From Luteibacter aegosomatis (GTDB lineage Bacteria; Pseudomonadota; Gammaproteobacteria; Xanthomonadales; Rhodanobacteraceae), in assembly GCF_023078455.1 (NCBI RefSeq), contig NZ_CP095740.1, positions 1,414,001 through 1,478,000 on the forward strand: DNA of 64,000 nt, read 5' to 3'. The notes under the pieces were generated by a model. It saw only the letters and a list, made by a program, of their open reading frames with translations, did no database searches and was not told the DNA's origin. Both the position numbers and the translations under genes were made by a program. Positions 57-20,638 of the stretch are shown one piece after another. The stretch's first letter is position 1. Every line of letters starts with the position of its first letter.

Positions 57-60
57 GCTT

Positions 61-92
61 ACAAGGGCTTGAATATCAGCTCGCACGCGCGA
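61..92 (+). promoter_or_regulatory. Phage late promoter-like motif, copy 1 (lysis/packaging unit)
   Basis: ACAAGGGCTTGAATAT followed by a CGCACGCGCG tract. The same block recurs at 8522 and 20239, each time in a gap just before a new group of phage genes. It lies directly after a terminator hairpin and about 80 bp before the first lysis gene. GAATAT could serve as a weak -10, or CAAG-N2/3-CTTG as an activator site; neither is shown by sequence alone. Confidence 0.6.
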
Positions 93-141
93 TGAACGAA
101 TCTGACGGCACACGGGGTCATGTGACCTACGGGGAGCCGTC

Positions 142-486
142 ATGTCGCTTATGTCGCATATCCGCGATGCCGTTACCGCCTGGGTAGCAGCTCGCCTCAA
201 GTCGTTTGGTTTGACCGGGGTTACCCGCGTCTGGCGTTGGTGGGTAGCGGCACTGGTGCTGCTGGCCATCGTCACGGTCATCTCGCCCCAGGCCGCTGGC
301 GTGCTGACCCTGAAGTTCGGGCAGCAGATGCTCGCTGCCATCGTCGGGTATCACCTGGCGAAGATCACTCTGATTCACGCCGTACCCGAACGGCTGCGTG
401 AGGTCCCCATTATTTCAGCTGCGTTGACCCTCGGCCGGGCGCTGGTCATGGCCGGCGCGATGCTCGCCGTGGGGCTGGGCCTGTGA
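142..486 (+). CDS. Putative phage holin-like membrane protein
   Basis: A 114-residue protein with an amphipathic/basic N-terminus, a hydrophobic segment around residues 33-53 (WWVAALVLLAIVTVIS) and a second at the C-terminus (about 94-114). A GGGGAG Shine-Dalgarno sits about 5 bases before the ATG. It is the first gene of the lysis cluster and overlaps the transglycosylase (TGATG), which is the usual holin position in Mu-like phages. The holin role, forming inner-membrane holes that let the cell-wall enzyme act, is inferred from size, membrane segments and position. The sequence does not match a holin family I can name. Confidence 0.6.
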   Translation: MSLMSHIRDAVTAWVAARLKSFGLTGVTRVWRWWVAALVLLAIVTVISPQAAGVLTLKFGQQMLAAIVGYHLAKITLIHAVPERLREVPIISAALTLGRALVMAGAMLAVGLGL

Positions 487-1190
487 TGCACGCATATGTC
501 CTCCTAGTCATCGCGCTTCTCCTTGCCCGATGGCAAGGGCGCCTGGTTTCTCAAGGAAGCGTGATCCGCGCAATGTTGATGTGGCTTGTCGCCATCATCG
601 TGGGCATGGCGTCGTTGAACGCTGCGCACGCGGCCAGCGTTCCCTCGCCTGCGGCCAAGTCGTGGCAACGCACGGTGCAGCGTGAAGCGCACGCGGTGTG
701 GGGCATCACCGCACCGGTTTCCGCCTTCGGTGCGCAGATCGAACAGGAGAGCGCCTGGCGCCCGAATGCTCGCAGCCCCTATGCAGGCGGCCTTGCCCAG
801 TTCACTGCGGACACGGCCTCTGACATGGCGCGTTGGTATCCGGAGCTGGGACCGGCTGATCCGTACGATCCCCGCTGGGCCATTCGGGCGCTGGTTCGGT
901 ACGACTACCGCCTCTATAACGGCGTTTTAGGTGCGCGAAGCGAGTGTGACCACTGGGCCATGACGCTCTCGGCGTACAACGGCGGCGCCGGCTGGCTGAG
1001 TCGCGACCGCGCCCTTTGCTCGCGTGTGTCCGCATGTGACCCCTCGCGCTGGTGGGGTCATGTGGAGCGCCAAAGCCAGCGCGCCTCGTGGGCGTTGACC
1101 GAGAACCGCGCCTATCCATCACGCATCCTGTTGACTCTACAGGCTCCTTACGCTGCTGCTGGCTGGGCCGGTCAGGCGGTGTGCCCGTGA
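486..1190 (+). CDS. Phage lytic transglycosylase (SLT-like endolysin)
   Basis: A 234-residue muralytic enzyme that would cleave the glycan chain of peptidoglycan at lysis. Hydrophobic segments at about 3-15 and 31-50, the latter ending AHAA, act as a signal/anchor, so export may be Sec-dependent. The catalytic domain follows from about residue 60: the catalytic Glu is in QIEQESAW (about residue 88), then GLAQFT and LSAYNGG, the hallmark motifs of soluble lytic transglycosylases. The ATG at 486 overlaps the holin-like stop; a GTG at 483 in the same frame is the alternative. The spanin genes follow at once. Confidence 0.88.
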   Translation: MHAYVLLVIALLLARWQGRLVSQGSVIRAMLMWLVAIIVGMASLNAAHAASVPSPAAKSWQRTVQREAHAVWGITAPVSAFGAQIEQESAWRPNARSPYAGGLAQFTADTASDMARWYPELGPADPYDPRWAIRALVRYDYRLYNGVLGARSECDHWAMTLSAYNGGAGWLSRDRALCSRVSACDPSRWWGHVERQSQRASWALTENRAYPSRILLTLQAPYAAAGWAGQAVCP

Positions 1191-1222
1191 CCATCGCGAA
1201 CGAACTGACTGGAGTTCCTTTA

Positions 1223-1645
1223 ATGACGACGGCCAAGCGCCTGATCGGCTACTTGCTGGTACTCGCGCTCGTATTCATCAGTGGCTGGTTCAGTGGCGGC
1301 AGGTCGGCCAACGGCGACGTCCAGGCGAAATACATCGATACCGCCATCGACAGCGCGCTGTGGCAGAGCCAGGCGCAGATGGACGAAGCAGCCTTAGCCG
1401 AGGTGAAACAGCTTCTGGACAAGCAAAAAAATGATTTGGCGGCAGCGAAACGAACGGCCTCGGAAGCCATAGCTCAACGTACCGCCGTTCAAAAGCAGCT
1501 CAACGCCGAGCGCGATACGCGCAAGCAAGCCCTGGAGAAAACCGCGAATGAAAACCCCGACTGTGCTGCTCTGGCTGGCGTGCTTTGCCCTGCTGTCGCT
1601 CGCCGGCTGTTCGGCTCACCGGCAGGCCCGACCGACACCGAGTAA
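1223..1645 (+). CDS. Rz-like inner-membrane spanin (i-spanin)
   Basis: A 140-residue protein with one N-terminal membrane segment (about residues 7-24, LIGYLLVLALVFISGWF) followed by a long Ala/Lys/Gln/Glu-rich coiled-coil stretch (about 45-115) that would span the periplasm. This is the architecture of Rz-type i-spanins. GGAG lies 8 bases before the ATG at 1223; an upstream GTG at 1187 overlapping the preceding stop is a weaker option. Its 3' part contains the start of the Rz1-like gene in another frame, the classic nested spanin arrangement. Together the pair would fuse the inner and outer membranes in the last lysis step. Confidence 0.8.
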   Translation: MTTAKRLIGYLLVLALVFISGWFSGGRSANGDVQAKYIDTAIDSALWQSQAQMDEAALAEVKQLLDKQKNDLAAAKRTASEAIAQRTAVQKQLNAERDTRKQALEKTANENPDCAALAGVLCPAVARRLFGSPAGPTDTE

Positions 1646-1889
1646 GCCGACGGTCTTGTCCGTCGCAACCGTGACGTATGCGCCGATGCCGACCGAGCTG
1701 ACGGATGCCATCGCGGAGCCCGTACCGCCGCCCCAGCATTGCCGCACCGCCACTGGTGACCCGGGCTGGTGTCTCATCGATGCGCTCAGCTGGATCGAGG
1801 ACTGGCGTGGAACCCTCATGCGGTGCAATGCCGACCGTGCAACGACAGCTCGAATTGGTAACGCCGTGCAGAAGGCGGTGAAGCCGTGA
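1548..1889 (+). CDS. Rz1-like outer-membrane spanin lipoprotein (o-spanin)
   Basis: A 113-residue lipoprotein starting inside the Rz-like gene in a different frame (98-base overlap). The signal peptide ends in a lipobox LAGC with Cys21 and Ser at +2, compatible with outer-membrane sorting. The mature part is Pro-rich at its start, as in Rz1 proteins, but is longer than typical Rz1 (about 40 mature residues) and carries extra Cys residues (HC, WC, RC). It is expected to bind the Rz-like coiled coil across the periplasm. The long C-terminal part beyond the overlap is unexplained. Confidence 0.78.
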   Translation: MKTPTVLLWLACFALLSLAGCSAHRQARPTPSKPTVLSVATVTYAPMPTELTDAIAEPVPPPQHCRTATGDPGWCLIDALSWIEDWRGTLMRCNADRATTARIGNAVQKAVKP

Positions 1890-1925
1890 GCCAAGAAACT
1901 AACAACGGCTTGAAGGATGGTGCGC

Positions 1926-2186
1926 ATGGATGAGCTCGAAATCGCCTCGGCACAGGAATCCGCCGACCGGGAGGCACTGATCAACCTTCAGCTCCTACGT
2001 GGACGGGTAGCACGAGCTCCCGCCAAGCACGCTGCGGATGGTAGGCGCATCTGCGTGCATTGCGGGGAACCCATCGCCGAGAAGCGCCTCGCGGCCGTTC
2101 CACATGCAACCGCCTGCCGCGATTGCGAAACCATGGCCGAGCAGCACGCCGCCCATTACGTCAGGAGAAACGCATGGGCAGTGTGA
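1926..2186 (+). CDS. TraR/DksA-type C4 zinc finger protein
   Basis: An 86-residue protein with the TraR/DksA zinc finger: CVHCGEPI followed about 15 residues later by ACRDC, giving a CxxC-x17-CxxC-type site, and an acidic N-terminal helix (MDELEIASAQE) like the tip region of TraR. The ATG at 1926 is preferred because AAGG lies 9 bases upstream; an ATG at 1917 overlaps that site. TraR-like proteins bind the RNA polymerase secondary channel and mimic DksA with ppGpp. In this phage it could tune host transcription during late growth. BcepMu-type phages carry such a gene at the same place. Confidence 0.85.
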   Translation: MDELEIASAQESADREALINLQLLRGRVARAPAKHAADGRRICVHCGEPIAEKRLAAVPHATACRDCETMAEQHAAHYVRRNAWAV

Positions 2187-2557
2187 TTCAGTTGAGTACC
2201 CGCGAAGTGTTGATTCTCGTCAGCGCCTTCGCTGGCGTCGTGTTTACGTTCGGCAAGTTGCTTCTCGGCCAGTTCGAGCGTCGTATGCAGGAGCGCTTCG
2301 ACGGCATGGAAAAACTGCGGGCGGCCGAAAAGAGCGCCCTGCGCGACCAGTTCGAGACGCTCGAAAGCAACCTGGAAGACACGACCGGACGGGTCACCGC
2401 CGTTGTGCAGCGCGTCGAGCAACTGCGGGACGAGTTACCAAAGCAATACGTAACACGCGAAGACTGGATTCGCTTCGCGACCACACAGGACGCCAAGCTT
2501 GACCGACTGATGGAGCTGGTCCTCAGCATGAAATTCAACGGGGGAAATAAATCGTGA
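2174..2557 (+). CDS. DUF2730-like phage membrane/coiled-coil protein
   Basis: A 127-residue protein with one N-terminal membrane segment (about residues 11-28, EVLILVSAFAGVVFTFG) and a long charged coiled coil (about 30-85). This layout matches DUF2730 proteins found between the lysis and terminase genes of Mu-like phages (Mu gp25-like position). AGGAG lies 6 bases before the ATG. It overlaps the TraR-like gene by 13 bases and the next gene by GTGA. Function is unknown. Confidence 0.65.
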   Translation: MGSVIQLSTREVLILVSAFAGVVFTFGKLLLGQFERRMQERFDGMEKLRAAEKSALRDQFETLESNLEDTTGRVTAVVQRVEQLRDELPKQYVTREDWIRFATTQDAKLDRLMELVLSMKFNGGNKS

Positions 2558-2862
2558 GCGATATCGACCTTGGCAAGATTCAGCGAGAGTCCGCCCGGTG
2601 GCGCATTCTCCGCATCCTCGACGCCGGCCGGCCGTTGCCGGTGAGCGAGCACACGGTGCTGCTTGCTCTCAATGACGCAAAGCTGTCGTTGACGATGCAG
2701 GAACTGCGTAGGGAGCTCGACTATCTGGATGATCGCAAGCTGCTTCGGATTCTCGACATCAATACCGCGCACTGGTCCGCCGAGCTGACGCATTACGGCG
2801 TCGACCTGGTGGAGTACACCGTGGACTGCTTGCCGGGCATCGCCCGCCCGCCGAGATTCTGA
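2554..2862 (+). CDS. Mu gp26-like protein, possible winged helix
   Basis: A 102-residue helical protein with a GTG start overlapping the previous stop (GTGA). The pattern of short helices (RWRILRILDAG, HTVLLALNDA, MQELRRELDYLDDRKLLRI) followed by a strand-like end resembles winged-helix DNA-binding proteins. Position directly before the small terminase matches Mu gp26-type genes. It may act in packaging or late regulation; this is inference from fold impression and position. Confidence 0.6.
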   Translation: MSDIDLGKIQRESARWRILRILDAGRPLPVSEHTVLLALNDAKLSLTMQELRRELDYLDDRKLLRILDINTAHWSAELTHYGVDLVEYTVDCLPGIARPPRF

Positions 2863-3377
2863 TGGCACCGCGTAGCAAGGTCGCCAAACTGCCAGCCGCC
2901 GTAAAGGAATGGCTGGACGATCGTCTGGTCGAAGGGAACTTCAGCGGCTATGAAACCCTTTCGGCCGAGCTGGCCAAGCGTGGCTATACCATCAGCAAAA
3001 GCGCGTTGCACAACTACGGTCAGGAATTCGAGGACCGCTTGGCGGCGGTCAAGCTGAGTACCGAGCAGGCGCGCGCTGTGGTCGCCAGTTCGCCGGATGA
3101 CGAAGGCGCCGTCAACGATGCGTTGATGCGACTGGTGCAGGACCGCCTATTCACGGTCCTGGTCTCGGCTAACAGCGACCAGCTGGATCTACCCAAGTTT
3201 GCTCGGGCTATTGCCGATCTTGGCCGGACCACGATCAGCCAGAAGAAATACGCCGCCGAGGTGCGAGCGCAGCGCGAGAGCGCGGCCGCCGAAGTTGAAC
3301 AGATCGCCCGCAAGGGAGGTCTCACAGCGGACACGGCCAATGAAATCCGTCAGATGATCCTCGGAATCGGCCAATGA
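2862..3377 (+). CDS. Terminase small subunit-like (DUF3486, Mu gp27 type)
   Basis: A 171-residue protein with the N-terminal pattern of DUF3486: KLPAAVKEWLDDRL, then GYETLSAELAKRGYTISKSALHNYG, a predicted helix-turn-helix. A helical C-terminal half follows. In Mu-like phages this gene precedes the large terminase and is thought to be the DNA-recognition subunit of the packaging motor. It shares one base with the previous stop and overlaps terL by ATGA, which suggests tight translational coupling. Confidence 0.82.
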   Translation: MAPRSKVAKLPAAVKEWLDDRLVEGNFSGYETLSAELAKRGYTISKSALHNYGQEFEDRLAAVKLSTEQARAVVASSPDDEGAVNDALMRLVQDRLFTVLVSANSDQLDLPKFARAIADLGRTTISQKKYAAEVRAQRESAAAEVEQIARKGGLTADTANEIRQMILGIGQ

Positions 3378-4897
3378 GCTCCCTACCCAGCGTCAGCAGT
3401 GCGGTGCTGATGCCCTACCAGCAGCAGTGGATTGCCGACACGTCTCCGTTCAAGGTGGCGGAGAAGTCGCGCCGTACCGGCCTGACATGGGCTGAGGCAG
3501 CTGACGATGTACTGATCGCTGCATCCGCCAAGGCAGCAGGCGGTCAAAACGTCTATTACATTGCCTACAACCAGGACATGACCATCGAGTACATCGAGGC
3601 ATGCGCCATGTTCGCTCGGGCATTCAACTACGCCGCTGCCCAGATGGAGGAAGGAATCTGGGATGGCGAGAGCGAGGAAGACAAAAGCATCAAAACCTTC
3701 ACGATTCGGTTTCCCGACAGCGGTCACCGCATCGTTGCACTGACGTCTCGCCCGTCCAACCTTCGTGGCCGCCAGGGCGTGGTGGTGATCGACGAGGCCG
3801 CGTTCCATGATCAGCTCGATGAGCTACTCAAGGCGGCCATGGCGCTGCTGATCTGGGGCGGAAAGGTCCGCGTCATCAGTACCCATAACGGTCAGACGAA
3901 CGCTTTCAACGAGCTCATCACCGATATCCACGCAGGCAAGCGCTCCGGCTCAATTCACCGTATCGACTTTGCCACGGCAATCGCCAATGGCCTTTACCGC
4001 AGGGTCTGCGCCCGGATGGGCGTCGAGTGGACTCAGGCCGGCCAGGACGAGTGGGTCGCTGGCGTCTACAAGTTCTACGGCGACGGTGCCGCCGAGGAAT
4101 TGGACTGCGTCCCGTCCAATGGCACCAACGCGTACCTGTCCGGTGCCTTGATCGAAGCAAGGTCAATCGATGCCCCTGTGCTGCGCTGGTCACAGCCGGT
4201 GGCATTTGCCGCGCTTGATGATCACACCCGATGGGCCGCGTGCCAAGCGTGGCTGGATGGCGAGGTGCTGCCACTCCTGGAAGCTCTTGACCCGACACTG
4301 GAGCATGCCTTCGGCCAGGACTTTGGCCGCGACCATGACTTGACCGTCATTGCGCCGATTCAGACCCTACAGCAGTTGCGCCGACGCGTGCCCTTCGTGC
4401 TGGAACTGCGCGGCATCCCGTTTCGTCAGCAAGAGCAAATTCTGTTCTTCGTTGTGGACCGCCTCCCCCGATTCACCAAGGGTGTGCTCGACGCACGCGG
4501 CAACGGCCAATCGCTGGCCGAGTTCGCCTGGCAGAAGTATGGCGAGGAACACATCGAGCGACTGATGCTGAGCGAGACGTGGTACCGCGAGCAGATGCCT
4601 GCGTTCAAGACGGCCTTTGAAGACGGCGCTTTCGATATTCCAAGGGATGTGGACATCCGCAACGATCTGCGTGCGCTGAAGCTCATCAAGGGCGTGGGCC
4701 GTCTTCCCGACGGCTACAAGGGCAAGGGCCAGGACAACCAGCCACGCCACGCCGATGCCGCCATCGCCTTGGCTATAGCGCACTACGCCAGCCGACAGGA
4801 TGTCGTGGTGTACGCGATCCATCGTGTCAAACCCACTGCCGATCTGCCGCGCGCTATCAAGCGCGGCGGCGGATGGCGTACCGAGAAAGGTTTTTAA
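3374..4897 (+). CDS. Terminase large subunit (Mu gp28-like packaging ATPase/nuclease)
   Basis: A 507-residue packaging motor. N-terminal ATPase: PYQQQWI, then the variant Walker A KSRRTGLTW (about residues 31-39) and a Walker B-like VVVIDEAAFHD (about residues 136-146), followed by coupling motif STHNG. The C-terminal RNase H-like nuclease region begins near GQDFGRDHDLT with acidic residues. In Mu-like phages it packages headfuls from integrated copies, including flanking host DNA. It sits between the small terminase and the portal, as expected. Confidence 0.92.
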   Translation: MSSLPSVSSAVLMPYQQQWIADTSPFKVAEKSRRTGLTWAEAADDVLIAASAKAAGGQNVYYIAYNQDMTIEYIEACAMFARAFNYAAAQMEEGIWDGESEEDKSIKTFTIRFPDSGHRIVALTSRPSNLRGRQGVVVIDEAAFHDQLDELLKAAMALLIWGGKVRVISTHNGQTNAFNELITDIHAGKRSGSIHRIDFATAIANGLYRRVCARMGVEWTQAGQDEWVAGVYKFYGDGAAEELDCVPSNGTNAYLSGALIEARSIDAPVLRWSQPVAFAALDDHTRWAACQAWLDGEVLPLLEALDPTLEHAFGQDFGRDHDLTVIAPIQTLQQLRRRVPFVLELRGIPFRQQEQILFFVVDRLPRFTKGVLDARGNGQSLAEFAWQKYGEEHIERLMLSETWYREQMPAFKTAFEDGAFDIPRDVDIRNDLRALKLIKGVGRLPDGYKGKGQDNQPRHADAAIALAIAHYASRQDVVVYAIHRVKPTADLPRAIKRGGGWRTEKGF

Positions 4898-4900
4898 CCC

Positions 4901-6466
4901 ATGGTGCAGTCCACTATCCTCGACCAGTACGGCCGACCCATCGAATACGACCAGCTCACTGAGGAACTCTCCGCCCCTTCGCTCACGGGCATTCGTTCGA
5001 CCTGGTATCCGTCGACGTCTGGAAGCCTCTCGCCGGGGCGTCTGGCAGCGATGCTGGAAGCGGCCAACCAAGGCGATGCGGATGACTATCTGACGCTTGC
5101 GCTGGAGATGGAAGAGCGAGACCTGCACTACGCCAGTGTGCTGGGAACGCGCAAGCTCGCTGTATCCGGCCTCGATGTCACGGTAGAGGCGCTGACCGAC
5201 GATGCTGCCGACGTACGCATGGCCGATGCACTACGCGAGCTGGTCACCGCCCCGGAATTCGACGAGCTGCGCGCGGACCTGGTCAACGCCCTGGGCGCCG
5301 GCTATGCGGTCAGCGAGATCATGTGGGACAAGAGCGGCAGGACGTGGATGCCGTGCGACTACAAAGAGCGCGATCCCAGGCACTTCCGTTTCGACCGCGA
5401 TACGGGCCGAGAGCTTCGCCTGATCGACCCGCAGGATATGGCCAACGGCATTGCCCTGGCACCCTACAAATTCGTGGTGCATTACCCGCGCATCCGGCCT
5501 GGCCTTCCCATTCGTGGCGGCCTCGCACGGCTCGCGGCGGTGGCCTACATGTGCAAGGCCTGGGCGTGGAAGGATTGGATGTCGTTTGCCGACATCTATG
5601 GCCTGCCCATGCGTGTGGGCAAGTACGGTCCGGGCGCGAGCGCAGAAGACATCGCGAAGCTGATGTCAGCGGTTGCCAACCTGGGCAGCGACGCGGCGGC
5701 CGTGATGCCTTCTGGCATGTCCATCGACTTCCAGACCGCAGCGCAGACGGCGGGCGCCGGTGATTTCTTCCGGGGGCTGGCGGAGTGGTGGGATAAGCAG
5801 GTGAGCAAGGGCGTCATTGGTCAGACCATGACGACCGACGACGGGGCTAGCATGGCACAAGCCCAGGTGCATCAGCTCGTGCGCGAAGACCTGCTCACGG
5901 CGGACGCCAAGGCCCTGCAAAACACCCTTCAGCGCCAACTCGTGCGCGGCTTTATCGATCTGAACTTCGGGCCGGGCCGTTATCCGCGTTTGATCGTCAA
6001 CGTTCCCAAACCCGAAGACGTCGCCGCGCTGGTCAAAGCCTTGGGCATCCTGGTCCCGCTCGGCTTACAGGTCGAGCAGAGCGTGGTGCGAGACAAATTG
6101 GGGATTGCCGATCCTGCGCCTGGCGCCCTGTTGTTGCAGCCCGCTGCGCCCGTACCCGTCGCTGCCAACCGCGCGCTCAACGCCGAGGTGCGGCCAACGC
6201 CGGCTGATGCGGCCACGTCGGTTGATCGGGTCGACGCGATCGTTAGACAGCTCGACGCACAGCAAGGCGCGATAACGGAGCAGTGGTTGGATCAGATTCG
6301 TGCCGTTGTCGATCAAGCGGCGACACTGGACGACGTGCGCGATGGCTTATTCGCCCAGTTTGCCGAGCTGAGTCTGGATGGCTTCGCGCAAGGCATGCAG
6401 GACGCACTGGATGCCGCGCAGGCGGCGGGTCGCTATGACCTGATGCAGGAGGCGGCCAGTGGCTGA
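4901..6466 (+). CDS. Portal protein (DUF935, Mu gp29-like)
   Basis: A 521-residue protein of the DUF935 portal family. Recognisable stretches: SLSPGRLAAMLEAANQGD and YLTLALEMEERDLHY near the N-terminus, LAVSGLDVTVEA, and a central RGGLARLAAVAYMCKAWAWKDW block typical of this family. The portal forms the dodecameric ring at the head vertex through which DNA enters and leaves. It follows terL after 3 bases and overlaps the F-like gene by 8 bases, whose GTG start has AGGAGG upstream inside this gene. Confidence 0.92.
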   Translation: MVQSTILDQYGRPIEYDQLTEELSAPSLTGIRSTWYPSTSGSLSPGRLAAMLEAANQGDADDYLTLALEMEERDLHYASVLGTRKLAVSGLDVTVEALTDDAADVRMADALRELVTAPEFDELRADLVNALGAGYAVSEIMWDKSGRTWMPCDYKERDPRHFRFDRDTGRELRLIDPQDMANGIALAPYKFVVHYPRIRPGLPIRGGLARLAAVAYMCKAWAWKDWMSFADIYGLPMRVGKYGPGASAEDIAKLMSAVANLGSDAAAVMPSGMSIDFQTAAQTAGAGDFFRGLAEWWDKQVSKGVIGQTMTTDDGASMAQAQVHQLVREDLLTADAKALQNTLQRQLVRGFIDLNFGPGRYPRLIVNVPKPEDVAALVKALGILVPLGLQVEQSVVRDKLGIADPAPGALLLQPAAPVPVAANRALNAEVRPTPADAATSVDRVDAIVRQLDAQQGAITEQWLDQIRAVVDQAATLDDVRDGLFAQFAELSLDGFAQGMQDALDAAQAAGRYDLMQEAASG

Positions 6467-8347: not shown

Positions 8348-8492
8348 AACGCCCGTAGCGGCCCCCCAAGGGGGGTGGGGGGCGGCAGAGATACCGGGCG
8401 GGGGTGGCGTCGGGCTCTAAAACGGGTTTTAAATGCTTCGGGAGGGGGGCTTGCCCTTTCCCGGCGTCCCATCTGTCGGCTCCACGGGCAAA

Positions 8493-8512
8493 ACCCCTCC
8501 TGGCGAGGGGTC
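8493..8512 (+). terminator. Hairpin after the gpG-like gene, weak terminator candidate
   Basis: ACCCCTC and GAGGGGT arms around a CTGGC loop, without a strong T-run after it. It lies in the 223-bp gap between the gpG-like gene and the protease gene, just before the second late promoter-like motif. The rest of this gap is G-rich (several runs of five to six G) with no open frame that I can support. Confidence 0.4.
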
Positions 8513-8521
8513 ATGTTCATA

Positions 8522-8553
8522 ACAAGCCCTTGAATAACGAGACTGCGCGCGCG
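8522..8553 (+). promoter_or_regulatory. Phage late promoter-like motif, copy 2 (head/tail unit)
   Basis: ACAAGCCCTTGAATAA followed by GCGCGCGCG, matching the motifs at 61 and 20239. The distance from the A of ACAAG to the downstream ATG is 49 bases, identical to copy 3, and the downstream leader also shares an ACATGGCCCCATGG / ACCATGCCGCCATGG block. It opens the unit that starts with the head protease. Confidence 0.65.
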
Positions 8554-8570
8554 GGGCAGAACATGGCCCC

Positions 8571-9533
8571 ATGGCACACAAATCTCACCTCGCTCTGAAT
8601 GTCGAACTGGCCGCCGTCGATGGCGCCGCCCCCGAGTGGGTGGAGCTGATCCCGGCTGGCCCCAACGTCACCGGCCTCGATGGCCGCAGCTGGGTGTTCG
8701 ACCAGCTCGCCGCCAGCCAGGTGCTCGCCACCTTCGCCGAACGCGGTCTCGATGTCGTCATCGACTGGAACCACGCGACCCAGCTCCAGGCTCCCACGGG
8801 AGGCGATGCGCCGGCCGCCGCCTGGATCAAGCGCCTGGAGTCCCGCGACGGCGCGCTCTGGGGTCAGGTGGATTGGACGCCGCGCGGCGGCCAGCAGGTG
8901 CTCAACCGTGAATACAAGTACCTGAGCCCGGTCTTCGACTACGACCCGACCACCAAGCGCATCGCGCGCCTGGTCAGCGCAGCCATTCTCAACACCCCCA
9001 ACCTGCGCCTGACGGCGCTCAATAGCGAGGAAACACCTGTGGCCCTATCCGCAGCAATTGCGGGCGCGCTCGGCCTCACCACCGACGCAACCGACGAGGC
9101 GGCCCTTGCCGCCATCACCCAGCTGAAGACCGCGCGAGCGGCCAACAACGAGAACCCGAGCCTGGAACGCTTCGTGCCCCGCGCGGACTACGACACGCTG
9201 CACACCCGCGCCGTCAACGCCGAGCAGGCGCTGGCCGCCCGCGACGCCGCCGAACACACCGCAGCGGTGGATGCCGCGATCAGCAGCGCCCTGGCGGCCG
9301 GCAAGATCACCCCCGCGACCCAGGACTACCACCGTGCCAGCTGTTCCGACTCGGCCGGCCTGGCGCGCTTCAAGGAGTACGTCAACATCGCGGCCGTGAT
9401 CGCGCCGGACCAGAAGGACCTAGACAAGCGCGGTGATGGCAACGGAACCGCCCTCAACGCCGAAGAGCTGGCCGTGTGCCAGGCCACCGGCCTCGATCCC
9501 GCCGCCTTCCTCGCTTCCAAAGCCGACAAGTAA
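8571..9533 (+). CDS. Head maturation protease/scaffold (Mu I-like)
   Basis: A 320-residue Mu I-type protein. The N-terminal protease region has VIDWNHAT and AAWIKRLE, then NREYKYLSPVFDYD and NTPNLRLTALN, all typical of the phage I-like family. The C-terminal half (from about residue 150) is Ala/Asp/Glu-rich, consistent with the scaffold (gpZ-like) part that guides shell assembly and is later degraded. Conserved His66 and Ser candidates were not verified structurally. It starts the second late unit. Confidence 0.88.
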   Translation: MAHKSHLALNVELAAVDGAAPEWVELIPAGPNVTGLDGRSWVFDQLAASQVLATFAERGLDVVIDWNHATQLQAPTGGDAPAAAWIKRLESRDGALWGQVDWTPRGGQQVLNREYKYLSPVFDYDPTTKRIARLVSAAILNTPNLRLTALNSEETPVALSAAIAGALGLTTDATDEAALAAITQLKTARAANNENPSLERFVPRADYDTLHTRAVNAEQALAARDAAEHTAAVDAAISSALAAGKITPATQDYHRASCSDSAGLARFKEYVNIAAVIAPDQKDLDKRGDGNGTALNAEELAVCQATGLDPAAFLASKADK

Positions 9534-9545
9534 GGACTGATACCC

Positions 9546-9965: not shown

Positions 9966-9979
9966 GGAGCCTCGCACCC

Positions 9980-10876: not shown

Positions 10877-10885
10877 GTACCGTCT

Positions 10886-10915: not shown

Positions 10916-11052
10916 TGCCTTGCGCGAATCGGATAGCGCTGGCCCCCAAAGGTCACGGGGAGAAGGGGACTCAACGTACACAGTCTTCAGTAGGCCTGAA
11001 AAGCGTGCGTGACAGCCGGAGAGACGGCAACCACCCCTACACAGTGAGTCCC

Positions 11053-13443: not shown

Positions 13444-13454
13444 CGGAGAATCCC

Positions 13455-13826
13455 ATGGCAGATACCTATGTTGGGCTGATCGTCCTCGAGATCGACGGCA
13501 CCGAGTACGAAGTGGTCAGCCTCAGCACGACCGAGAACACGAATCGCAAGGTCGTGAAGACGATGAATTCCAGCGGTCGGCCGTTGGGGACGTCCAAAGG
13601 CGTTGCCGACTACTCGCTCACCGTGAACGTGGCCATCCCGAAGACCGGGGAGCCGAACTGGAGCACCCTGATCGACGGAAAGATCACCGCGTACCCCCAG
13701 GATGGCGGTGGTCTCCGCGAGACCTGGACGGGTGTGCACCTGGTCACGAAGGGCAGCACGTACAACCTGGACAACGAAGCCACCCGCGAGCTGCAACTGT
13801 CCGCCCTCAACTACTACACCGAATGA
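13455..13826 (+). CDS. Tail tube protein (Mu gpM-like)
   Basis: A 123-residue tail tube protein; GLIVLEIDGTEYEVVSLSTTENTNRKVVKTMNSSGR and the closing NLDNEATRELQLSALNYY fit the tube family of Mu-like contractile tails. GGAGAA lies 5 bases before the ATG. It forms the inner tube inside the sheath. Its stop overlaps the start of a small lipoprotein gene (ATGATGA). Confidence 0.83.
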   Translation: MADTYVGLIVLEIDGTEYEVVSLSTTENTNRKVVKTMNSSGRPLGTSKGVADYSLTVNVAIPKTGEPNWSTLIDGKITAYPQDGGGLRETWTGVHLVTKGSTYNLDNEATRELQLSALNYYTE

Positions 13827-14068
13827 TGCGCCGGCCATCGATCCGTCCTGTGGCATTCGTCATCGTACTTGCCAGCGTACTGCTGGCCGGCTGCGATATC
13901 CAAGAAACGCAACGCCAGCTGGTGTGCACCCGTGATGGCACGCTGCTCTATCAGAGCCCGCTCTCCGCCTTCATCACACCTCGCGCCAATACCGCCAGCT
14001 GGAATATCGACGGTGCGATATACACACCCGAGAGCAACAGCACCTGCGTCGTCAACGACGTGTACTGA
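13823..14068 (+). CDS. Phage lipoprotein with Asp at +2 (possible moron/exclusion factor)
   Basis: An 81-residue lipoprotein: a basic start (MMRRPSIRP), a hydrophobic core and lipobox LLAGC with Cys24, then Asp at +2. In enterobacteria Asp+2 keeps lipoproteins in the inner membrane. The mature 58 residues hold two further Cys (LVCTRDG, STCVVND) that could form a disulfide. It sits between tail tube and tail chaperone, where no structural role for a lipoprotein is known. A superinfection-exclusion or other lysogenic function is possible, but this is inference. Confidence 0.7.
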   Translation: MMRRPSIRPVAFVIVLASVLLAGCDIQETQRQLVCTRDGTLLYQSPLSAFITPRANTASWNIDGAIYTPESNSTCVVNDVY

Positions 14069-14232
14069 CTTTCAGCGATACGGCGTGCCGCGCACGACAC
14101 AAAGTCCGTAGGTAATCAGACCCCGTATTCACTGAGCCGGTATGAGCTGGACGGCCAAGACAAAAAGTAACTCGGGGACCCGGCCAGCCAACCTGGCTAT
14201 CGCTATCCAGAACAATCATTGCAAGGCTGATT

Positions 14233-14589
14233 ATGTCCACATCGAACACCAAGAACTGGGAAGGTCTGACTATCACGCGTGATTTGAAGGTCGGCGTGCT
14301 GTTCGCCGGCACTCGACACAAGAAGTTCACCCTTCGCGTGCCGATGGCTGGCGATCTGATCAACGCCCAGAAGGCATACCCCAGCGGACCGATCCGCCTA
14401 CAAGCATTGGAGTGCTATCGCCAACAGCTTCTCGAACTCGGGGATATTCCCGCCGAAAGCCTGACCATCGAACTGCTGAGCACGGAGCTGGCCGAGGTCG
14501 ACCTGGGGCTGTTGGAGGTGGCCGATGAAGAGCTGGGAAAGTCGCTGAACGATCCGCCCGAAAAAGCGGACTCCGAAACTGGTGGTTAA
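14233..14589 (+). CDS. Tail assembly chaperone, short form (Mu gp41-like)
   Basis: A 118-residue protein of the Mu gp41 tail-assembly family (LRVPMAGDLINAQKAYPSGPIRLQALECYRQQLLELGDIP). It corresponds to lambda gpG in role: a chaperone that coats the tape measure protein during tail assembly. A lambda-type slippery heptamer lies at 14535-14541 in the right phase to produce a longer form. Upstream, 14069-14232 is a gap without a supported gene. Confidence 0.82.
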   Translation: MSTSNTKNWEGLTITRDLKVGVLFAGTRHKKFTLRVPMAGDLINAQKAYPSGPIRLQALECYRQQLLELGDIPAESLTIELLSTELAEVDLGLLEVADEELGKSLNDPPEKADSETGG

Positions 14590-14744
14590 TTGAACACGTC
14601 CTAGTCAAGCACGGCTATCGCATTGACGAAATTGGACGAATGACCAAGCCTGAAATCGAGGCGCGACTGGACTTCATCAGTCGTCGCGGCAAGCCCGCCG
14701 CCACCAAGACCTACAAGAGCGCGAGGAATAAGGAAGCCCGATGA
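14233..14744 (+). CDS. Tail assembly chaperone, predicted -1 frameshift form (gpG-T-like)
   Basis: Reading shifts by -1 at G-GGA-AAG (14535-14541) after codon 103, joining the next frame, which is open from 14529 to the TGA at 14742-14744. The extension adds 67 residues rich in Arg/Lys (WLIEHVLVKHGYRIDEIG, MTKPEIEARLDFISRRG), giving a 170-residue product that ends four bases into the tape measure start (ATGA). An ATG at 14640 inside the extension could instead start a small separate protein. Lambda uses the identical heptamer for gpG/gpGT. Confidence 0.72.
14535..14541 (+). other. Slippery heptanucleotide GGGAAAG for programmed -1 frameshift
   Basis: In the gp41-like frame it reads CTG-GGA-AAG, fitting X-XXY-YYZ exactly. 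It is the only such heptamer I found within the 61-base window (14529-14589) in which a -1 shift can work, because an in-frame stop (TGA, 14526-14528) closes the -1 frame upstream. Confidence 0.75.
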
Positions 14745-17131
14745 GCGATATGCGCGTCAATCTCACCGTACGGGCGCGCAGCGAGGGCAGCGGTCCGGTC
14801 GACGCTCAAACGGCGGCCGTCGACAAGCTAGGCAAGACATCCACGACCACAGGCAACAAGGTCAAGCAGGCGCTGCGATGGCAGAACGGGCAATGGCAGG
14901 AGGTCAAGCAATCCACCTCCGAAGCGGGTGCCGAGGTCAAGAAGTTCGGCGGCACGATGGATCGTGTGGCCACGCAGGGACAGCGAGCCACCGACGCCAT
15001 TAAGCGCGGTCTGCAAGACGATGCGCGCGAGCTACGCCGTTCCACCACCGAGGCTGAGCGTGCTGGTCGTGGCATGGACCGGCTGCGCATGCTCGCCCTT
15101 CGCTCGACCAGCGCGTTGCGCACCATGGCCAGCGCTGCACGCCGTGAATTCGACGGCCTGCATAAGGTGCTGGGCGGCGTCGGCGGCCGCCTGGCCGCGC
15201 TCGGCATCGGTGCGGGCGCCGTGCAGACGCTGCGGTCCAGTGCGCAGTTGGACCGTACCAACATCCAGCTGCGTCAAACGGCCGACATGAGTGCAGCGGA
15301 TGTCGACGACTGGCGGCGCACCCGTTGGGCGATGGCTCGCGCCAATGGCAACAGCCCCGATGCGATTGATCGCGGCATGGGGCAGTTGGTGGCCGCCGGC
15401 TTGAATTATCAGCAGGCAAAGCCCGCAGCGAACGCCGCTGACGTCGCATCGACGATCAGTGGCGCCGATCAGGGCCAGCTGGCGGACTATCAGGTCACGG
15501 CGGCCGCCATCTTCAACGAGGACCTGGCCAAGGCTGGAACGAGCAACCGCCTGCTCGCGCAAGGGTTGGTGGGTGGCCGCCTCGGTCGCGCCGAGTTGCC
15601 GGACCTTCCCAACATCTTCCCTCGTGTCGGCGGTGCCGCGCAGCAAGCGGGGCTGAACTATCCGCAGACCATCGGCTACATCGAAGCGCTATCCAATATC
15701 GAGTCCCAACCCGAGCGCCTAGCAACACTGGCCGAGTCGGGACTTCGCATGTTCACCAACGGCAAGTACCGGGCGCAGGTCACCAAGACGACGGGCGTGA
15801 ACTTCTTCGATAAGAAGGGCGCGACACGCGATCCCTTTGCAGTTATGGAGGATTTGCGCAAGCGATACGAGAAGCTGAAGACGGATAGTCGGCGGTCGGC
15901 CTTCTTGCAAGCGGTGATTGGCGAGGCCGATCTCGACACGCAGCGCAACTTCCGCGCGTTTCTTCAACCCGGTCGCATCGAGCAGGCCCGTGACTACGGT
16001 AAGCAGATTAGCGCCGTGGCAGACTTCGACCCAGCCCAGCTCGATGAAAACCGCAAGAGTGCCACCGCCACGGCAGGACGCGTCAAAGCCACGGTGGGTG
16101 AGGCCCTGGACAAGGCCGCGATCCCGGTGAACAAGGCGCTGGCCAGCGCGGCGCAATACCTGCTGGACGACAAGGGGCTGAGCGGTAGCCAGCTCCTGGG
16201 CGGCGCTGCGGCTTTGGGCGTAGGGGGCTACTACGGCGGTCGCCTGGCGAAGTGGGGCGGCAGCAAGGCCTTGGGTAAGCTGACCGACCTGCTCGGTGGC
16301 AGTGTCGATACGGTGAAAAACATCGTGGTCGGCCATGCCCTGCAAGAAAGCACCGGCGTCACACCCGTGTTTGTCACCAACTGGAGCGGCGCACCGTCGG
16401 GTATCGGCAGCGCGGCATCCAGCGCCGCCGAGGTAGCCGCCGAGGCGGCCACCGGTGGTCGCGCTGCTACCGCCGCCACGGGCGCCGCTCGGGTCGCAGC
16501 TGGTGCACGCGGCTTTGTCATGGCTGATCTACTGCCGGCATTTGCTCTGGGCGCTGGTGTGGCGGCCGTGAACGATGCCTTGAAGCCTATTGCGGATGCG
16601 CAAGATGCGCAGTTGGTAGCTGACCAGCGGGAGCGGGACAAGAAGCGCTTCGGCATCAACGATGCACAGCTGGATCGCCGCAATCAGATCGAAACGAGCG
16701 AAATGCCGTATGGACGCTGGGTCGATAGCGCATACGCCGCGCCGGGGAAGAAGCGCGTTGAGGACTACGAGGCCTGGGTGACAAGCCAGATTCCAGCGGA
16801 GCAGGTCGATGCCGGCGATGCCGCCAGGGCGGCTGGGCTCATCGGCAATGTCGCCCGCTCTCCCGCCGCACGCTGGCTCTCGCCCCGGCTTTCGGATTCG
16901 GTCAGCTCGTGGGCAGAACAGACCGCCTCGCGGCTGGACCCGGCAGCTATTGGCGATACCAGCGCGGCGGCCGCCAGCCAGATGCAGGACGCTGCTCGCG
17001 TATTCAACGACGCAGCGCGCCTGCTCGAACCACTCCTGGGCAAGCCACTCCAGATCCAGGTCACATCGGATACCGACGAACTACACGCCAAGGTCGTTGA
17101 TCGACAAGTGCGTGACGCGAGGCGCGGATGA
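14741..17131 (+). CDS. Tail tape measure protein (Mu gp42-like)
   Basis: A 796-residue protein directly after the tail chaperone. A charged, Ala-rich helical N-terminal region (residues 1-150) is followed by the TP901-type core: LRMLALRSTSALRTMA, GVGGRLAALGIGAGAV, and the QTADMSAADVDDWRR and IGYIEALSN stretches. Hydrophobic Gly/Ala-rich segments lie at about 490-510 and 590-620 and may insert into the host membrane at ejection. Length sets tail length. It overlaps the next gene by ATGA. Confidence 0.88.
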   Translation: MSDMRVNLTVRARSEGSGPVDAQTAAVDKLGKTSTTTGNKVKQALRWQNGQWQEVKQSTSEAGAEVKKFGGTMDRVATQGQRATDAIKRGLQDDARELRRSTTEAERAGRGMDRLRMLALRSTSALRTMASAARREFDGLHKVLGGVGGRLAALGIGAGAVQTLRSSAQLDRTNIQLRQTADMSAADVDDWRRTRWAMARANGNSPDAIDRGMGQLVAAGLNYQQAKPAANAADVASTISGADQGQLADYQVTAAAIFNEDLAKAGTSNRLLAQGLVGGRLGRAELPDLPNIFPRVGGAAQQAGLNYPQTIGYIEALSNIESQPERLATLAESGLRMFTNGKYRAQVTKTTGVNFFDKKGATRDPFAVMEDLRKRYEKLKTDSRRSAFLQAVIGEADLDTQRNFRAFLQPGRIEQARDYGKQISAVADFDPAQLDENRKSATATAGRVKATVGEALDKAAIPVNKALASAAQYLLDDKGLSGSQLLGGAAALGVGGYYGGRLAKWGGSKALGKLTDLLGGSVDTVKNIVVGHALQESTGVTPVFVTNWSGAPSGIGSAASSAAEVAAEAATGGRAATAATGAARVAAGARGFVMADLLPAFALGAGVAAVNDALKPIADAQDAQLVADQRERDKKRFGINDAQLDRRNQIETSEMPYGRWVDSAYAAPGKKRVEDYEAWVTSQIPAEQVDAGDAARAAGLIGNVARSPAARWLSPRLSDSVSSWAEQTASRLDPAAIGDTSAAAASQMQDAARVFNDAARLLEPLLGKPLQIQVTSDTDELHAKVVDRQVRDARRG

Positions 17132-18570
17132 GCTGGAAAGACAATCTCCTACCGGCGAGCTTTCGCTCGATAGCTATCGACGTGGTTGGCACGGAGCTGG
17201 ACGTGAGTCGCTCGCTCGCCTTGCATGGCGTGCCATACCGTGACGGCGAATCCGTCGAGGATCTCGGCCGGGATGCCCGGCGCTTCGAAGTCCAAGTGGT
17301 GTGCTGGGGAGACAACTACGAAACGACGCTGCAAGAGCTGATCGTTGCGCTGGACTCGTCCGATGATGCCGCCTTTGTGCACCCGGTCTACGGCAACATC
17401 ACCGTACACGTCGAGCGCTACCGTATTCGGGACGATGCGGAAACCCCGGACCGGGCCGAGATATCACTTACCCTGATTGAGTCTGGCGATGATCCGCAGT
17501 TCTTTCAGCGAACGTTCGTCACTACCGCCGATGCCGTGGCTAGCACGCAGCAGCTCAGCGGCCTGGCGTCCGCTATTGCCTCCGGCAAGGCGGTCTTGGG
17601 CCAGGTTCGCTCGTATGCTTCGGCGGTACGCGGCGTGCTGGCTCAGGTTGTCGGTATCGTATCCACCGTCCGAAATGCCACGGATGGTGGGTGGACCGGG
17701 CTCATGGAAAACGTGATCGGTCAACCTGGGATCACTCTTCAGTTCGCCCAGCTGCGCAGCCAGATACTCGGAACCCTCAGCGGACTTGCCGCACTGGCCG
17801 ACGGCGTCACACCGACGTTCGACCCTGTCGTGGGCGAAGGATCGAAACGCGTCCTGCCGGAGGCTCGCGACGATATCGAATTCACCATGCCGACCAGTGC
17901 CACCAGGCTGCTGGCCGGCGACGCACTGCCGCAGACCGTGCCAGGGCAGGACAACCTCCCGGCCATGGCCGTTCGCGCGTGGCAGGTCGCCCTCGTGTGC
18001 GCTCGCCAAGGCGTCATGCCGACCCTCTATGCCGGTGCCCTGGACACCAATTCAGGCGCGAATGGCGGCGCCGCCAGCGGGACCGCCATTGAGCTGCCGG
18101 ATGGCCTCCCGGCGGACGCCGTCAACGCTGTGGGCCTCACGTTGGTCGCCTACCTGATTACTGAGCAGGCGATGATCCTTGCTGACGCCGTGTGCAGCGT
18201 ATTTGATGCCGAGCTCGATAGTCCGAGCCTCTCGCCCAACGATGTGGACGCACTGACCGCCCAGGTGCGCTCGCTCCTACAGTCGGCGATCATCATGCAT
18301 CGCGAGCTGTTCGACGTGGAAGCGGCGCTGACGGTCATCGAGCCACTCCGGCAGCTCGCCCAGGTTGTCCAGGTGTCTGCTAACGCGGTCATCAATATCA
18401 AACCGCCCATCGTGCAGCGCGTGGTTCCATCGATGCAGTGTCTACGTCGCCTGGCGTTCCTCTGGTATGGCGACAACACGCGAGCGAACGAGCTGCTTCG
18501 ATTGAATCCGAACCTCGTTACGCCTTACAGCATCAGCGCAGGCCAGGTACTGAACGCATATGCCAACTAG
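17128..18570 (+). CDS. DNA circularisation/tail protein (Mu gpN, gp43-like)
   Basis: A 480-residue protein with the N-terminal DNA-circularisation-family domain: SWKDNLLPASFRSI, then HGVPYRDGESVEDLGRDARRF and VHPVYGNITVHVERY. In Mu this is gpN, a baseplate/tail component also needed for DNA circularisation after injection. The C-terminal helical half ends with FLWYGDNTRANELLRLNPNL, like LysM-adjacent tail proteins. It overlaps the next gene by 11 bases. Confidence 0.85.
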   Translation: MSWKDNLLPASFRSIAIDVVGTELDVSRSLALHGVPYRDGESVEDLGRDARRFEVQVVCWGDNYETTLQELIVALDSSDDAAFVHPVYGNITVHVERYRIRDDAETPDRAEISLTLIESGDDPQFFQRTFVTTADAVASTQQLSGLASAIASGKAVLGQVRSYASAVRGVLAQVVGIVSTVRNATDGGWTGLMENVIGQPGITLQFAQLRSQILGTLSGLAALADGVTPTFDPVVGEGSKRVLPEARDDIEFTMPTSATRLLAGDALPQTVPGQDNLPAMAVRAWQVALVCARQGVMPTLYAGALDTNSGANGGAASGTAIELPDGLPADAVNAVGLTLVAYLITEQAMILADAVCSVFDAELDSPSLSPNDVDALTAQVRSLLQSAIIMHRELFDVEAALTVIEPLRQLAQVVQVSANAVINIKPPIVQRVVPSMQCLRRLAFLWYGDNTRANELLRLNPNLVTPYSISAGQVLNAYAN

Positions 18571-19657
18571 CCCGAACATACGGTTGTCGGTCGGCGGTGT
18601 CGTTAATGACACCTGGACGGGCTGGTCGGTCGATAGTGACCTGTTGACGCCCGCCGATGGTTTCGAGCTCGAACTTTTTACGCGTAACGGCATCACCTTG
18701 CCGGCAACGGTGGTCGAAGGCGCACCCTGCACATTGGATCTGGACGGCGATGCCGTCTTGACCGGCGCACTGGATGAGGTTGAGCAACAGGTGGGGCGCC
18801 GTGGCCATGCTGTGCGCATCACCGGTCGTGACAAAGCCGGAACCCTGGTGGACTGCTCCAGTCCGTTTGTTTCGATGCGGGAAGCCACCTTGCAGCAGAT
18901 CATCGACCAGGTGGTGAAGCCCATGGGCATCAGCAAGGTCCGCCTGGATAGCGATATCGCCAAGCTGCGCAAGCAGGTACAGGTCAGCCCAGGGCAAACA
19001 GCGTGGGAAGCGCTCCTGCTCACGGCCGAAGCTAATGGGCTGTGGCCCTGGGTCGATCCCGATGGCACGCTGGTCGTCGGTGGCCCTGATTACACCGCCG
19101 CAACGGTGGGTGACTTGGTCCTGCGTCATGGAGATAGCGACGACAACAACATCGAGGATATGAGCGTGCGTCGGTCGATTGCAGATCGCTACAGCCAGAT
19201 CACGGTGTTGGGCCAGCATGGTGCATACCAAGGCAGCGGCTGGGACGAGGACCGCACCACGTTGACGGCCAAGGTAAGCGATAGCGCGCTGACGGCGCGC
19301 GGCATCTTCCGGCCCCGTGTGGTCATCGACAGTGGATGTGATACCAGCGACCTCGCCACGGATCGCGCAAACAAGCTGCTTTCGGATAGTCAGCTCGATG
19401 CCTTCGAGGCCCGAATAAGGGTCAAAGGGTGGCGCGCCAGTGGCGGCGCCGTGTGGACGCCTGGCCAGCGCGCCAACCTGATCAGCGAACCGCACGGCAT
19501 CAATGGCACGTACTTTCTCATGGCACGCACACTGCGCTTGACGCGCCGAGAGGGAGCCATCACAGAACTACGCTTCCGTGAGGATAAGACGTGGGTGGTT
19601 AACGCTCACCAGAAAAAGCAAAAGAAGCAAAAGACCACGGAATTTTTTGGCCTATGA
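18560..19657 (+). CDS. Baseplate hub protein (Mu gpP, gp44-like)
   Basis: A 365-residue baseplate hub protein related to phage late control gpD/gp27. Seen: LSVGGVVNDTWTGWSVDSDLL, HAVRITGRDKAGTLVDCSSP, VSPGQTAWEALLLTAEANGLWPW and RTLRLTRREGAITEL near the end, all typical of Mu gpP. The last residues are Lys/Gln-rich (HQKKQKKQKTTEFFGL). It overlaps the following spike gene by ATGA. Confidence 0.88.
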   Translation: MPTSPNIRLSVGGVVNDTWTGWSVDSDLLTPADGFELELFTRNGITLPATVVEGAPCTLDLDGDAVLTGALDEVEQQVGRRGHAVRITGRDKAGTLVDCSSPFVSMREATLQQIIDQVVKPMGISKVRLDSDIAKLRKQVQVSPGQTAWEALLLTAEANGLWPWVDPDGTLVVGGPDYTAATVGDLVLRHGDSDDNNIEDMSVRRSIADRYSQITVLGQHGAYQGSGWDEDRTTLTAKVSDSALTARGIFRPRVVIDSGCDTSDLATDRANKLLSDSQLDAFEARIRVKGWRASGGAVWTPGQRANLISEPHGINGTYFLMARTLRLTRREGAITELRFREDKTWVVNAHQKKQKKQKTTEFFGL

Positions 19658-20229
19658 AGCGCCTGACCCAAGTCATGCGGCAAACCGCAGAGCGAGCCGG
19701 GCAGCGCATGCGCGCGGCGTTTAGGGGCAAGCTCAGTCGCCTGGATGCTACGGCTGTGTTGCCCGCCGCCCAGGTTGAAGGTTTGGCTGGTGAAGCCGTT
19801 GCAGCTGAGCTCATGCAGCACTACGGCTTGGCCAGCGCGCCCCTCGCGGGTGCCGAGGTCATCCTGCTTCCCGTTGGGGGCGACAGCGGGCATAGCGTGA
19901 TCATCGCGAGCATTGACGGCCGTTACCGCATTCAGCTTCAGCCAGGCGAAGTCGCGATCCACACGGACGAGGGGGATCACGTCCACATGCAACGCGGCCG
20001 TGTCATCGAGCTCGTCACAGAAACTCTGCTCGTGAAAGCTGGCACCAAGGTTCGCTTCGAAACGCCTGTCGTGGAAATGAGTAAGGATCTGCACGTCGAG
20101 AACAACGCACATGCCGATGGCGATGTCAGTGATGGCACGCGTTCCATGGCAGATGACCGTCAGATCTATGATGGTCACACCCACCCGGTTGCCGGAAGCT
20201 CGACGCTTCCACCCAATCAGAAACAGTGA
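19654..20229 (+). CDS. Baseplate assembly/tail spike protein (Mu gp45-like)
   Basis: A 191-residue protein of the Mu gp45 family. An OB-fold-like N-terminal half (QVEGLAGEAVAAELMQHYGLASAPLAGAEV) is followed by a region with short repeated strands that forms the trimeric beta-helix. YDGHTHPV near the C-terminus supplies the HxH histidines that bind iron at the tip of gp45/gpV-type membrane-piercing spikes. It closes the second late unit; a 58-bp gap with the third late promoter-like motif follows. Confidence 0.9.
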   Translation: MKRLTQVMRQTAERAGQRMRAAFRGKLSRLDATAVLPAAQVEGLAGEAVAAELMQHYGLASAPLAGAEVILLPVGGDSGHSVIIASIDGRYRIQLQPGEVAIHTDEGDHVHMQRGRVIELVTETLLVKAGTKVRFETPVVEMSKDLHVENNAHADGDVSDGTRSMADDRQIYDGHTHPVAGSSTLPPNQKQ

Positions 20230-20238
20230 CCGCTTCTA

Positions 20239-20270
20239 ACAAGCGCTTGAATATGCGACCCGCGCGTGCG
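20239..20270 (+). promoter_or_regulatory. Phage late promoter-like motif, copy 3 (baseplate/fibre unit)
   Basis: ACAAGCGCTTGAATAT followed by CGCGCGTGCGCG. CAAGCGCTTG is a perfect 10-base palindrome in this copy. The A of ACAAG is 49 bases before the gp46-like ATG, exactly as copy 2 is to its gene. Confidence 0.65.
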
Positions 20271-20287
20271 CGACGCACCATGCCGCC

Positions 20288-20638
20288 ATGGATGCAGGCA
20301 TTGACCCCAGAACAGGCGATCTAAGCGGACAGCGCATCACGACGCTGGCCAATGCCGTGTATCTACGTCTCGTCGTCCCACTTGGCAGCTGGTGGGCTGC
20401 ACCCACCCTTGGCAGTCGCCTGCATGAACTTCAGCGCGAGAAGGATGTATCTCGCGTTCGCATTCTGGCCCGGGACTACGCCTTGGATGCTTTGAAAGGC
20501 CTCCTGTCCGATGGCCGTGCGAGCGCCATTGACGTTTCGGTGTCTTCGTCGTCGATTGGATGGCTACAGCTCGATATCGACGTGACTGAAGCCGGTGGCC
20601 AGCAACAGACCTTCAATCACTGGGTCCGCGTGATCTAA
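20288..20638 (+). CDS. Baseplate wedge protein (gp46-like, gpW/gp25 family)
   Basis: A 116-residue protein with the gpW/gp25 pattern: VYLRLVVPLGSWWAAPTLGSRLHEL followed by helices and the LQLDIDVTEAGG strand. It is a baseplate wedge component that nucleates sheath assembly. Start at ATG 20288; a second ATG four bases later is out of frame. It abuts the baseplate J-like gene with no gap. Confidence 0.85.
   Translation: MDAGIDPRTGDLSGQRITTLANAVYLRLVVPLGSWWAAPTLGSRLHELQREKDVSRVRILARDYALDALKGLLSDGRASAIDVSVSSSSIGWLQLDIDVTEAGGQQQTFNHWVRVI

Follow-up and report, generated by a model that had tools for sequence, protein, structure and literature searches.

At the Pm promoter of bacteriophage Mu, a Mor dimer occupies two 5-bp repeats that flank a GC-rich 6-bp spacer at -51 to -36, with the center at -43.5 (as described in parts of PMC4390567 and PMC4287176). 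In Fc02, a Pseudomonas phage, strand-specific RNA sequencing distinguishes three late clusters, i.e., the holin and packaging genes, the structural genes up to a terminator, and a third cluster (portions of PMC9936078). In this study, we analyzed a 64,000-base stretch of the Luteibacter aegosomatis genome (NZ_CP095740.1, positions 1,414,001 to 1,478,000 of the forward strand; the window), which begins inside a Mu-like prophage and contains three copies of the motif ACAAGNSCTTGAATA ahead of late genes. The best reading of the motif, by analogy with Mu, places it within a 16-bp Mor-type site, TWACA-N6-TGAAT, and we consider it probable that this site together with a weak -10 element drives three late operons, two of them from leaderless mRNAs.

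The motif matches exactly at 61-75, 8522-8536, and 20239-20253, in each case on the + strand, as stated in the initial annotation of this stretch. These are the only three exact matches in the whole genome of 4,757,936 bases, and all of them lie inside the prophage late region; approximately 0.07 chance matches are expected by arithmetic, and the motif read backwards, used as a control, has no exact match genome-wide. With up to three mismatches, the window contains eight matches compared with 2.4 expected, and the five inexact ones, each with three mismatches, look like background. Each copy opens a different one of three late blocks. Block 1 (142-8347) carries the holin, endolysin, spanin, terminase, portal, MuF, and neck genes; block 2 (8571-20229) carries the head protease, capsid, sheath, tape measure, and further tail genes; and block 3 (20288-23829) carries the baseplate and fiber genes. 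An alternating CG tract follows each copy, and copies 2 and 3 are separated by exactly 49 bases from ATG 8571 and ATG 20288, respectively. These features had also been described in the initial annotation, and its proposal that the copies are likely the late promoters of the three blocks is supported.

At copies 2 and 3, -10-like hexamers occupy -12 to -7 relative to the A of the ATG, with 6 bp between (Table 1), and the ACATGGCCCCATGG/ACCATGCCGCCATGG block at the start codon consists of the end of the proposed -10 hexamer, these 6 bp, and the start codon. A -10 element followed by 6 bp and a start codon that serves as +1 thus explains both the exact 49 bases and the common start-codon block. 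The sequence features of leaderless genes are present at both copies (no Shine-Dalgarno sequence; hexamer end at -7), and their transcripts probably begin at the A of the ATG. At copy 1, the same arrangement predicts a start at base 110, which leaves a 32-base leader to the holin ATG with GGGGAG between. The earlier view that no -10 element is possible after the CG tract is not supported, as a possible -10-like hexamer lies beyond the tract at all three copies.

There is a candidate for the activator that had been suspected to the left of the window. The early region, which lies to the left in the adjoining stretch L004, contains a repressor-like helix-turn-helix gene on the minus strand, a Ner-like helix-turn-helix gene, homologues of transposases A and B, DUF3164, and GemA, and its final gene (G000:C1:1413096-1413542) belongs to the Mor family and ends approximately 460 bp before window base 1. 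This open reading frame (ORF) matches PF08765 at 51.1 bits (cut-off, 24.9), and its sequence relatives include Mu C (9l0x; E = 3e-7), Mor (1rr7; E = 3e-6), and 9vw8. No second Mor/C-family gene was found at E ≤ 1e-3 in the 46 kb formed by L004 and window 1-26000, so the Mor-family protein would act directly on the late operons. In the mechanism that we infer, in which Mor binding, the RNA start sites, and leaderless translation are predictions from sequence, the Mor-family protein would bind the 16-bp site at -51 to -36, where it would substitute for a -35 element, and bring the sigma-70-type RNA polymerase of the host to a weak -10 element (NANNNT), which would switch on the lysis/packaging, head/tail, and baseplate/fiber operons. 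Since the -10 element of copies 2 and 3 ends 6 bp before the ATG, their mRNAs would begin at the start codon and be translated without a leader, and the 32-base leader from copy 1 would carry a Shine-Dalgarno sequence.

The letters of the motif are retained in a close relative. In the viral contig G149, in which Mor and the protease are 92% identical to those of the Luteibacter prophage, the motif is kept at all three sites, the -10 elements of copies 1 and 2 are unchanged, that of copy 3 is CAACAT instead of CACCAT, and the sequence directly upstream of copy 2 diverges. In the more distant G023 (Mor about 40% identical; late proteins 27-71% identical), TTACA-N6-TGAAA lies ahead of the holin gene and ahead of the protease gene, and it fits two 5-bp inverted repeats with a 6-bp spacer with one mismatch. 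The baseplate gene of G023 has no element before its start and no gap, and AGGAG lies ahead of its ATG. The expected conservation of the motif in relatives therefore holds to the letter at the G149 sites and fails in G023 and others, in many of which the geometry is still kept. The CG tract, which is largely kept in G149 and was not seen in G023, was set aside as a signal. When ACAAGNSCTTGAATA was sought with up to three mismatches in 12 stretches from seven genomes that carry a Mor gene, no match was exact and the matches had two or three mismatches, and the comparison was therefore moved from letters to geometry. A motif-only scan of viral contigs returned at least 120 stretches, which is by estimate near chance for 14 fixed bases; among the matches listed, IMGVR_UViG_3300036781_000839 is the sole one tied to the phage studied here. 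A TerL-based search of genome contigs for close relatives confirmed none. The consensus of the prophage copies and G023 combined is the 16-bp TWACA-N6-TGAAW, which, with one mismatch, also matches places other than late-operon starts (two in the 44.5 kb of the prophage and two in G023); hence, the letters alone are not sufficient.

The geometry recurs over many Mu-like phages, as seen in a survey of head-protease starts. The 99 loci entered comprised 79 of the best 80 of at least 587 confirmed loci (L261, a partial match, was left out); the L. aegosomatis genome and the six others of a seven-genome set; 10 of the 19 rows of one search, from which a duplicate of the Luteibacter locus (L176) and eight weak, fragmentary, or stop-interrupted rows were left out; and 3 of 211 phage records (MT835710, B23, and D3112). 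L188, L200, and L269 (D3112) were dropped because the upstream sequence or the start was unusable, and the remaining 96 loci were reduced to 74 by dereplication at 70% identity. The start codon was by rule the most upstream in-frame ATG. The pair A(-11)/T(-7) is present at 43 of the 74 protease starts, compared with a mean of 3.2 and a maximum of 11 at 64 other offsets, and the 43 hexamers have 33 different forms, which argues that they are not simply one inherited stretch, though the phages share ancestry. In control genes of the same phages, the pair is rare: portal, 1/36; capsid, 4/58; TerL, 0/27; p1731, 0/39; TerS, 0/16; g17128, 1/12; GemA, 0/12; sheath, 0/9; adaptor, 0/9; spanin, 0/8; and p436, 0/8. 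Shine-Dalgarno sequences precede 15 of the 74 protease starts, i.e., 2 of the 43 with the hexamer versus 13 of the 31 without it, and Shine-Dalgarno-like words precede 29/36 portal, 49/58 capsid, 34/39 p1731, 15/27 TerL, and 6/16 TerS genes. Dyads with at least six of eight pairs peak at -44.5 (14/74 starts), and 17/74 starts have one at -43.5 or -44.5 (letter shuffles: mean 0.7, maximum 4). The A(-11)/T(-7) feature is thus common, not universal, at protease starts.

The element is also repeated within single phages. In 17 of 42 loci, i.e., those with enough upstream sequence and a protease start without a Shine-Dalgarno sequence, the 18-mer that surrounds the dyad is found again (up to three mismatches) on the lysis side, 6-13 kb upstream (scrambled elements as a control: mean 0.05, maximum 1), and copies closer than 6 kb occur in two of the 42. 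In L216, L227, L235, L256, and L268, the lysis-side copy likewise precedes, as judged by eye, the arrangement NANNNT-6 bp-ATG. An additional copy (up to three mismatches) lies 8.0-11.7 kb downstream in the Luteibacter prophage, L225, L250, and L267, and L256 has one at 5.3 kb. Two phages were viewed separately, outside the 74 starts: D3112 has two copies of its element, each followed by a GGCGGC-ATG block, and Fc02 has the element TTTTCGCYCCTTCCAAAA ahead of the holin and protease genes, the latter start reading CAGAGT-GGCGCC-ATG, and, by eye, a third copy ahead of the tape-measure gene. The transcript clusters of Fc02 agree with the element sites, at cluster and not base resolution. Overall, we lean toward the view that many Mu-like phages make a leaderless head mRNA (sometimes also a leaderless lysis or baseplate mRNA), in which the activator site would fix the start on the AUG and, in some of these phages, an inverted repeat around the -10 element would silence the same AUG in read-through RNA, so that the head genes would be made only when the activator fires. 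Separately, the annotated protease start of D3112 (L269:11981-12106) looks too far downstream; an upstream ATG has the promoter geometry but is in a different reading frame in the deposited record.

Several observations weigh against these readings. The symmetry of the prophage copies is modest (4/8 pairs at -43.5 in copy 2) and lies mainly in CAAG-N2-CTTG, in contrast to the 5-6-5 arms of Mu. A crude dyad score does not place -43.5 among the top centers of copies 2 and 3, nor does it rank -43.5 first in G016. The survey sample has common ancestry and leans to near relatives (best 80 of at least 587). Among the 31 of 74 starts without A(-11)/T(-7), 7 carry the pair shifted upstream by one base and 13 have a Shine-Dalgarno sequence. 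The hexamers are weak: over the 74 starts, they agree with TATAAT at a mean of 2.3 of 6 bases (other positions: mean 1.35, maximum 1.95). L212, L226, and L252 have a Mor gene and yet a Shine-Dalgarno protease start. A Mantel test (n = 19) shows weak co-variation of site and Mor sequences: the value is reached in 50 of 2000 permutations and, after correction for protease distance, in 127 of 2000.

An explanation at the RNA level is unlikely, although part of it may be correct. Transcripts would start upstream, GCCGCC-loop-GGCGGC-ATG would be a translational hairpin, and A(-11)/T(-7) would be loop bases. An inverted repeat around -12 to -7 with at least five of six pairs is indeed found at 12 of the 43 starts with the hexamer and at none of the 31 without it, the same-gap repeat occurs at most twice at other places except in the dyad region (5, 2, and 10), and the arms co-vary (GCCGCT/AGCGGC, GTCGCC/GGCGAC, and GGGGCG/CGCCCC). 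However, 31 of the 43 hexamer starts lack the repeat at that level, and the leadered copy 1 has, by eye, the same dyad-to-hexamer spacing without it. The sequence could be both at once, i.e., a promoter and a guard hairpin in read-through RNA. Inverted repeats that flank the -10 element and adjoin the ATG are also seen in L190, L203, L208, L235, L256, and L173, e.g., GCCGCC-AACAAT-GGCGGC-ATG.

It is quite unlikely that the same promoters are served by another phage or host factor that reads the dyad instead of Mor. The weak Mantel result would fit such a reader, and Mor is assigned this role by analogy; on the other hand, the corresponding position of Mu Pm is known to be read by Mor, and a + strand Mor-family ORF was found in 28 of the 99 survey loci, with many loci too short in sequence to reach the gene. 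The location of this gene varies: in L262, the ORF lies downstream of the protease gene, and in L263-L266, it lies approximately 550 bp upstream of the head protease gene and not ahead of the lysis block. In G173, a Mor-family frame from about 19073 lies close before the protease ATG 19727 (joined stretch), which is preceded by a Shine-Dalgarno sequence; since matches to further late genes are few in this stretch, it is perhaps a rearranged remnant. Finally, the initial suggestion that the -10 element lies inside the motif as GAATAT, with an activator bound upstream of it, is scarcely credible, because copy 2 reads GAATAA and GAATA, constant in the three copies and G149, is not kept in G023 (TGAAAC), the hexamer that recurs across phages is that at -12 to -7 from the ATG, and the region directly upstream of copy 2 diverges in G149.

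Table 1. Promoter features and first genes of the three late blocks (window coordinates)
Feature	Position	Strand	Remarks
Terminator-like GC hairpin and T run, upstream of copy 1	31..57	+	Read by eye; stem kept and loop altered in G149
Copy 1, 16-bp element TTACA-AGGGCT-TGAAT	59..74	+	Proposed -51 to -36; 15-bp motif identical in G149
Copy 1, proposed -10 GAATCT	98..103	+	Same distance from element; unchanged in G149; putative role
Holin gene, first gene of block 1	142..486	+	PHROG 1528; GGGGAG ahead of ATG, leadered
Hairpin ACCCCTC/GAGGGGT, upstream of copy 2	8490..8517	+	Read by eye; letters differ in G149
Copy 2, 16-bp element TAACA-AGCCCT-TGAAT	8520..8535	+	-51 to -36 from ATG 8571
Inverted repeat GGGGCA/GGCCCC around -10	8553..8570	+	5/6 pairs; adjoins ATG
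Copy 2, proposed -10 GAACAT	8559..8564	+	Unchanged in G149
Head maturation protease gene, Mu gene I homologue	8571..9533	+	PHROG 328; no Shine-Dalgarno sequence found; ATG is predicted start
Copy 3, 16-bp element TAACA-AGCGCT-TGAAT	20237..20252	+	-51 to -36 from ATG 20288
Copy 3, proposed -10 CACCAT	20276..20281	+	CAACAT in G149
Baseplate wedge gene	20288..20638	+	PHROG 180; ATG is predicted transcription start, leaderless

Directly to the right of the fiber genes, window 25080-25868 encodes a D12-class N6-adenine methyltransferase. The remainder of the window (26176-64000) probably consists of host genes, with a tRNA-Thr gene at 55441; among the ORFs tried there, five have Pfam matches, i.e., a TonB-receptor plug, UvrA domains, MurJ, a class I tRNA ligase that carries an IleRS-type zinc finger, and PilW.

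The literature considered consists of openly licensed papers, with the original B3, D3112, and BcepMu genome papers outside it; among the matches listed, the titles and abstract openings mention no leaderless late mRNA or such geometry in Mu-like phages. Relative to that literature, the widespread leaderless late mRNA predicted here for Mu-like phages would be new. If this is true, a broad phage group expresses its capsid operon from a leaderless mRNA, and the activator spacing and the start codon are locked together. The fixed geometry (a dyad near -43.5/-44.5, NANNNT, 6 bp, and ATG) would then make it possible, in genomes without transcription studies, to locate late promoters, to revise start codon assignments, and to match activators to their sites.

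The initial annotation had raised the possibility of an undescribed late-transcription system, whereas the predicted position and geometry match those of Mu Mor/C promoters; by this analogy, late transcription in the Luteibacter prophage is probably a variant of the Mu Mor/C system and not a new system. The locus resembles Mu Pm in the activator family, the GC-rich spacer, and a proposed -10 element without a -35 element (parts of PMC4390567 and PMC4287176), and the element would also share the position of the Mu site (-51 to -36, center -43.5) if the starts are those predicted at 110, 8571, and 20288. It differs in that the arm letters and symmetry are not those of Mu, in that two starts are predicted on the ATG, and in that three late operons would be under the direct control of the Mor-family protein. 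In Mu, Mor turns on C in a two-step cascade, whereas a single Mor/C-family gene was found in the 46 kb around the Luteibacter prophage, the product of which would itself serve the late operons. The sites correspond in place to the C-dependent Mu promoters Plys, PI, and PP, i.e., the lysis block, the head protease gene I, and the baseplate region (sections of PMC4461284). Mu I differs in having a leader of approximately 20-25 bases with AGGA before the ATG, as estimated from the oligonucleotide design in PMC4461284 and the Mu sequence; the third site is at a gp46-like gene, whereas Mu has P. The putative promoters p3-p5 of the D3112-like phages PaMx73/H70 lie at conserved Mu-like places, but they derive from general promoter programs, and the relevant portions of PMC4378225 refer neither to a dyad or Mor site nor to a leaderless start. 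The B3-like Fc02 also has three late clusters after induction and a mor homologue in its early operon (as given in parts of PMC9936078, in the main text of which "late promoter" and "leader" do not occur). Fc02 shares the repeated element and a similar hexamer-6 bp-ATG arrangement at the protease gene; it differs in the letters of the element and in the location of the third copy, which lies, as judged by eye, ahead of the tape-measure gene. Leaderless phage mRNAs are known, e.g., that of lambda cI, which begins at the AUG. Compared with lambda cI, the leaderless start is predicted here for late structural operons and would be tied to the fixed spacing of an activator.

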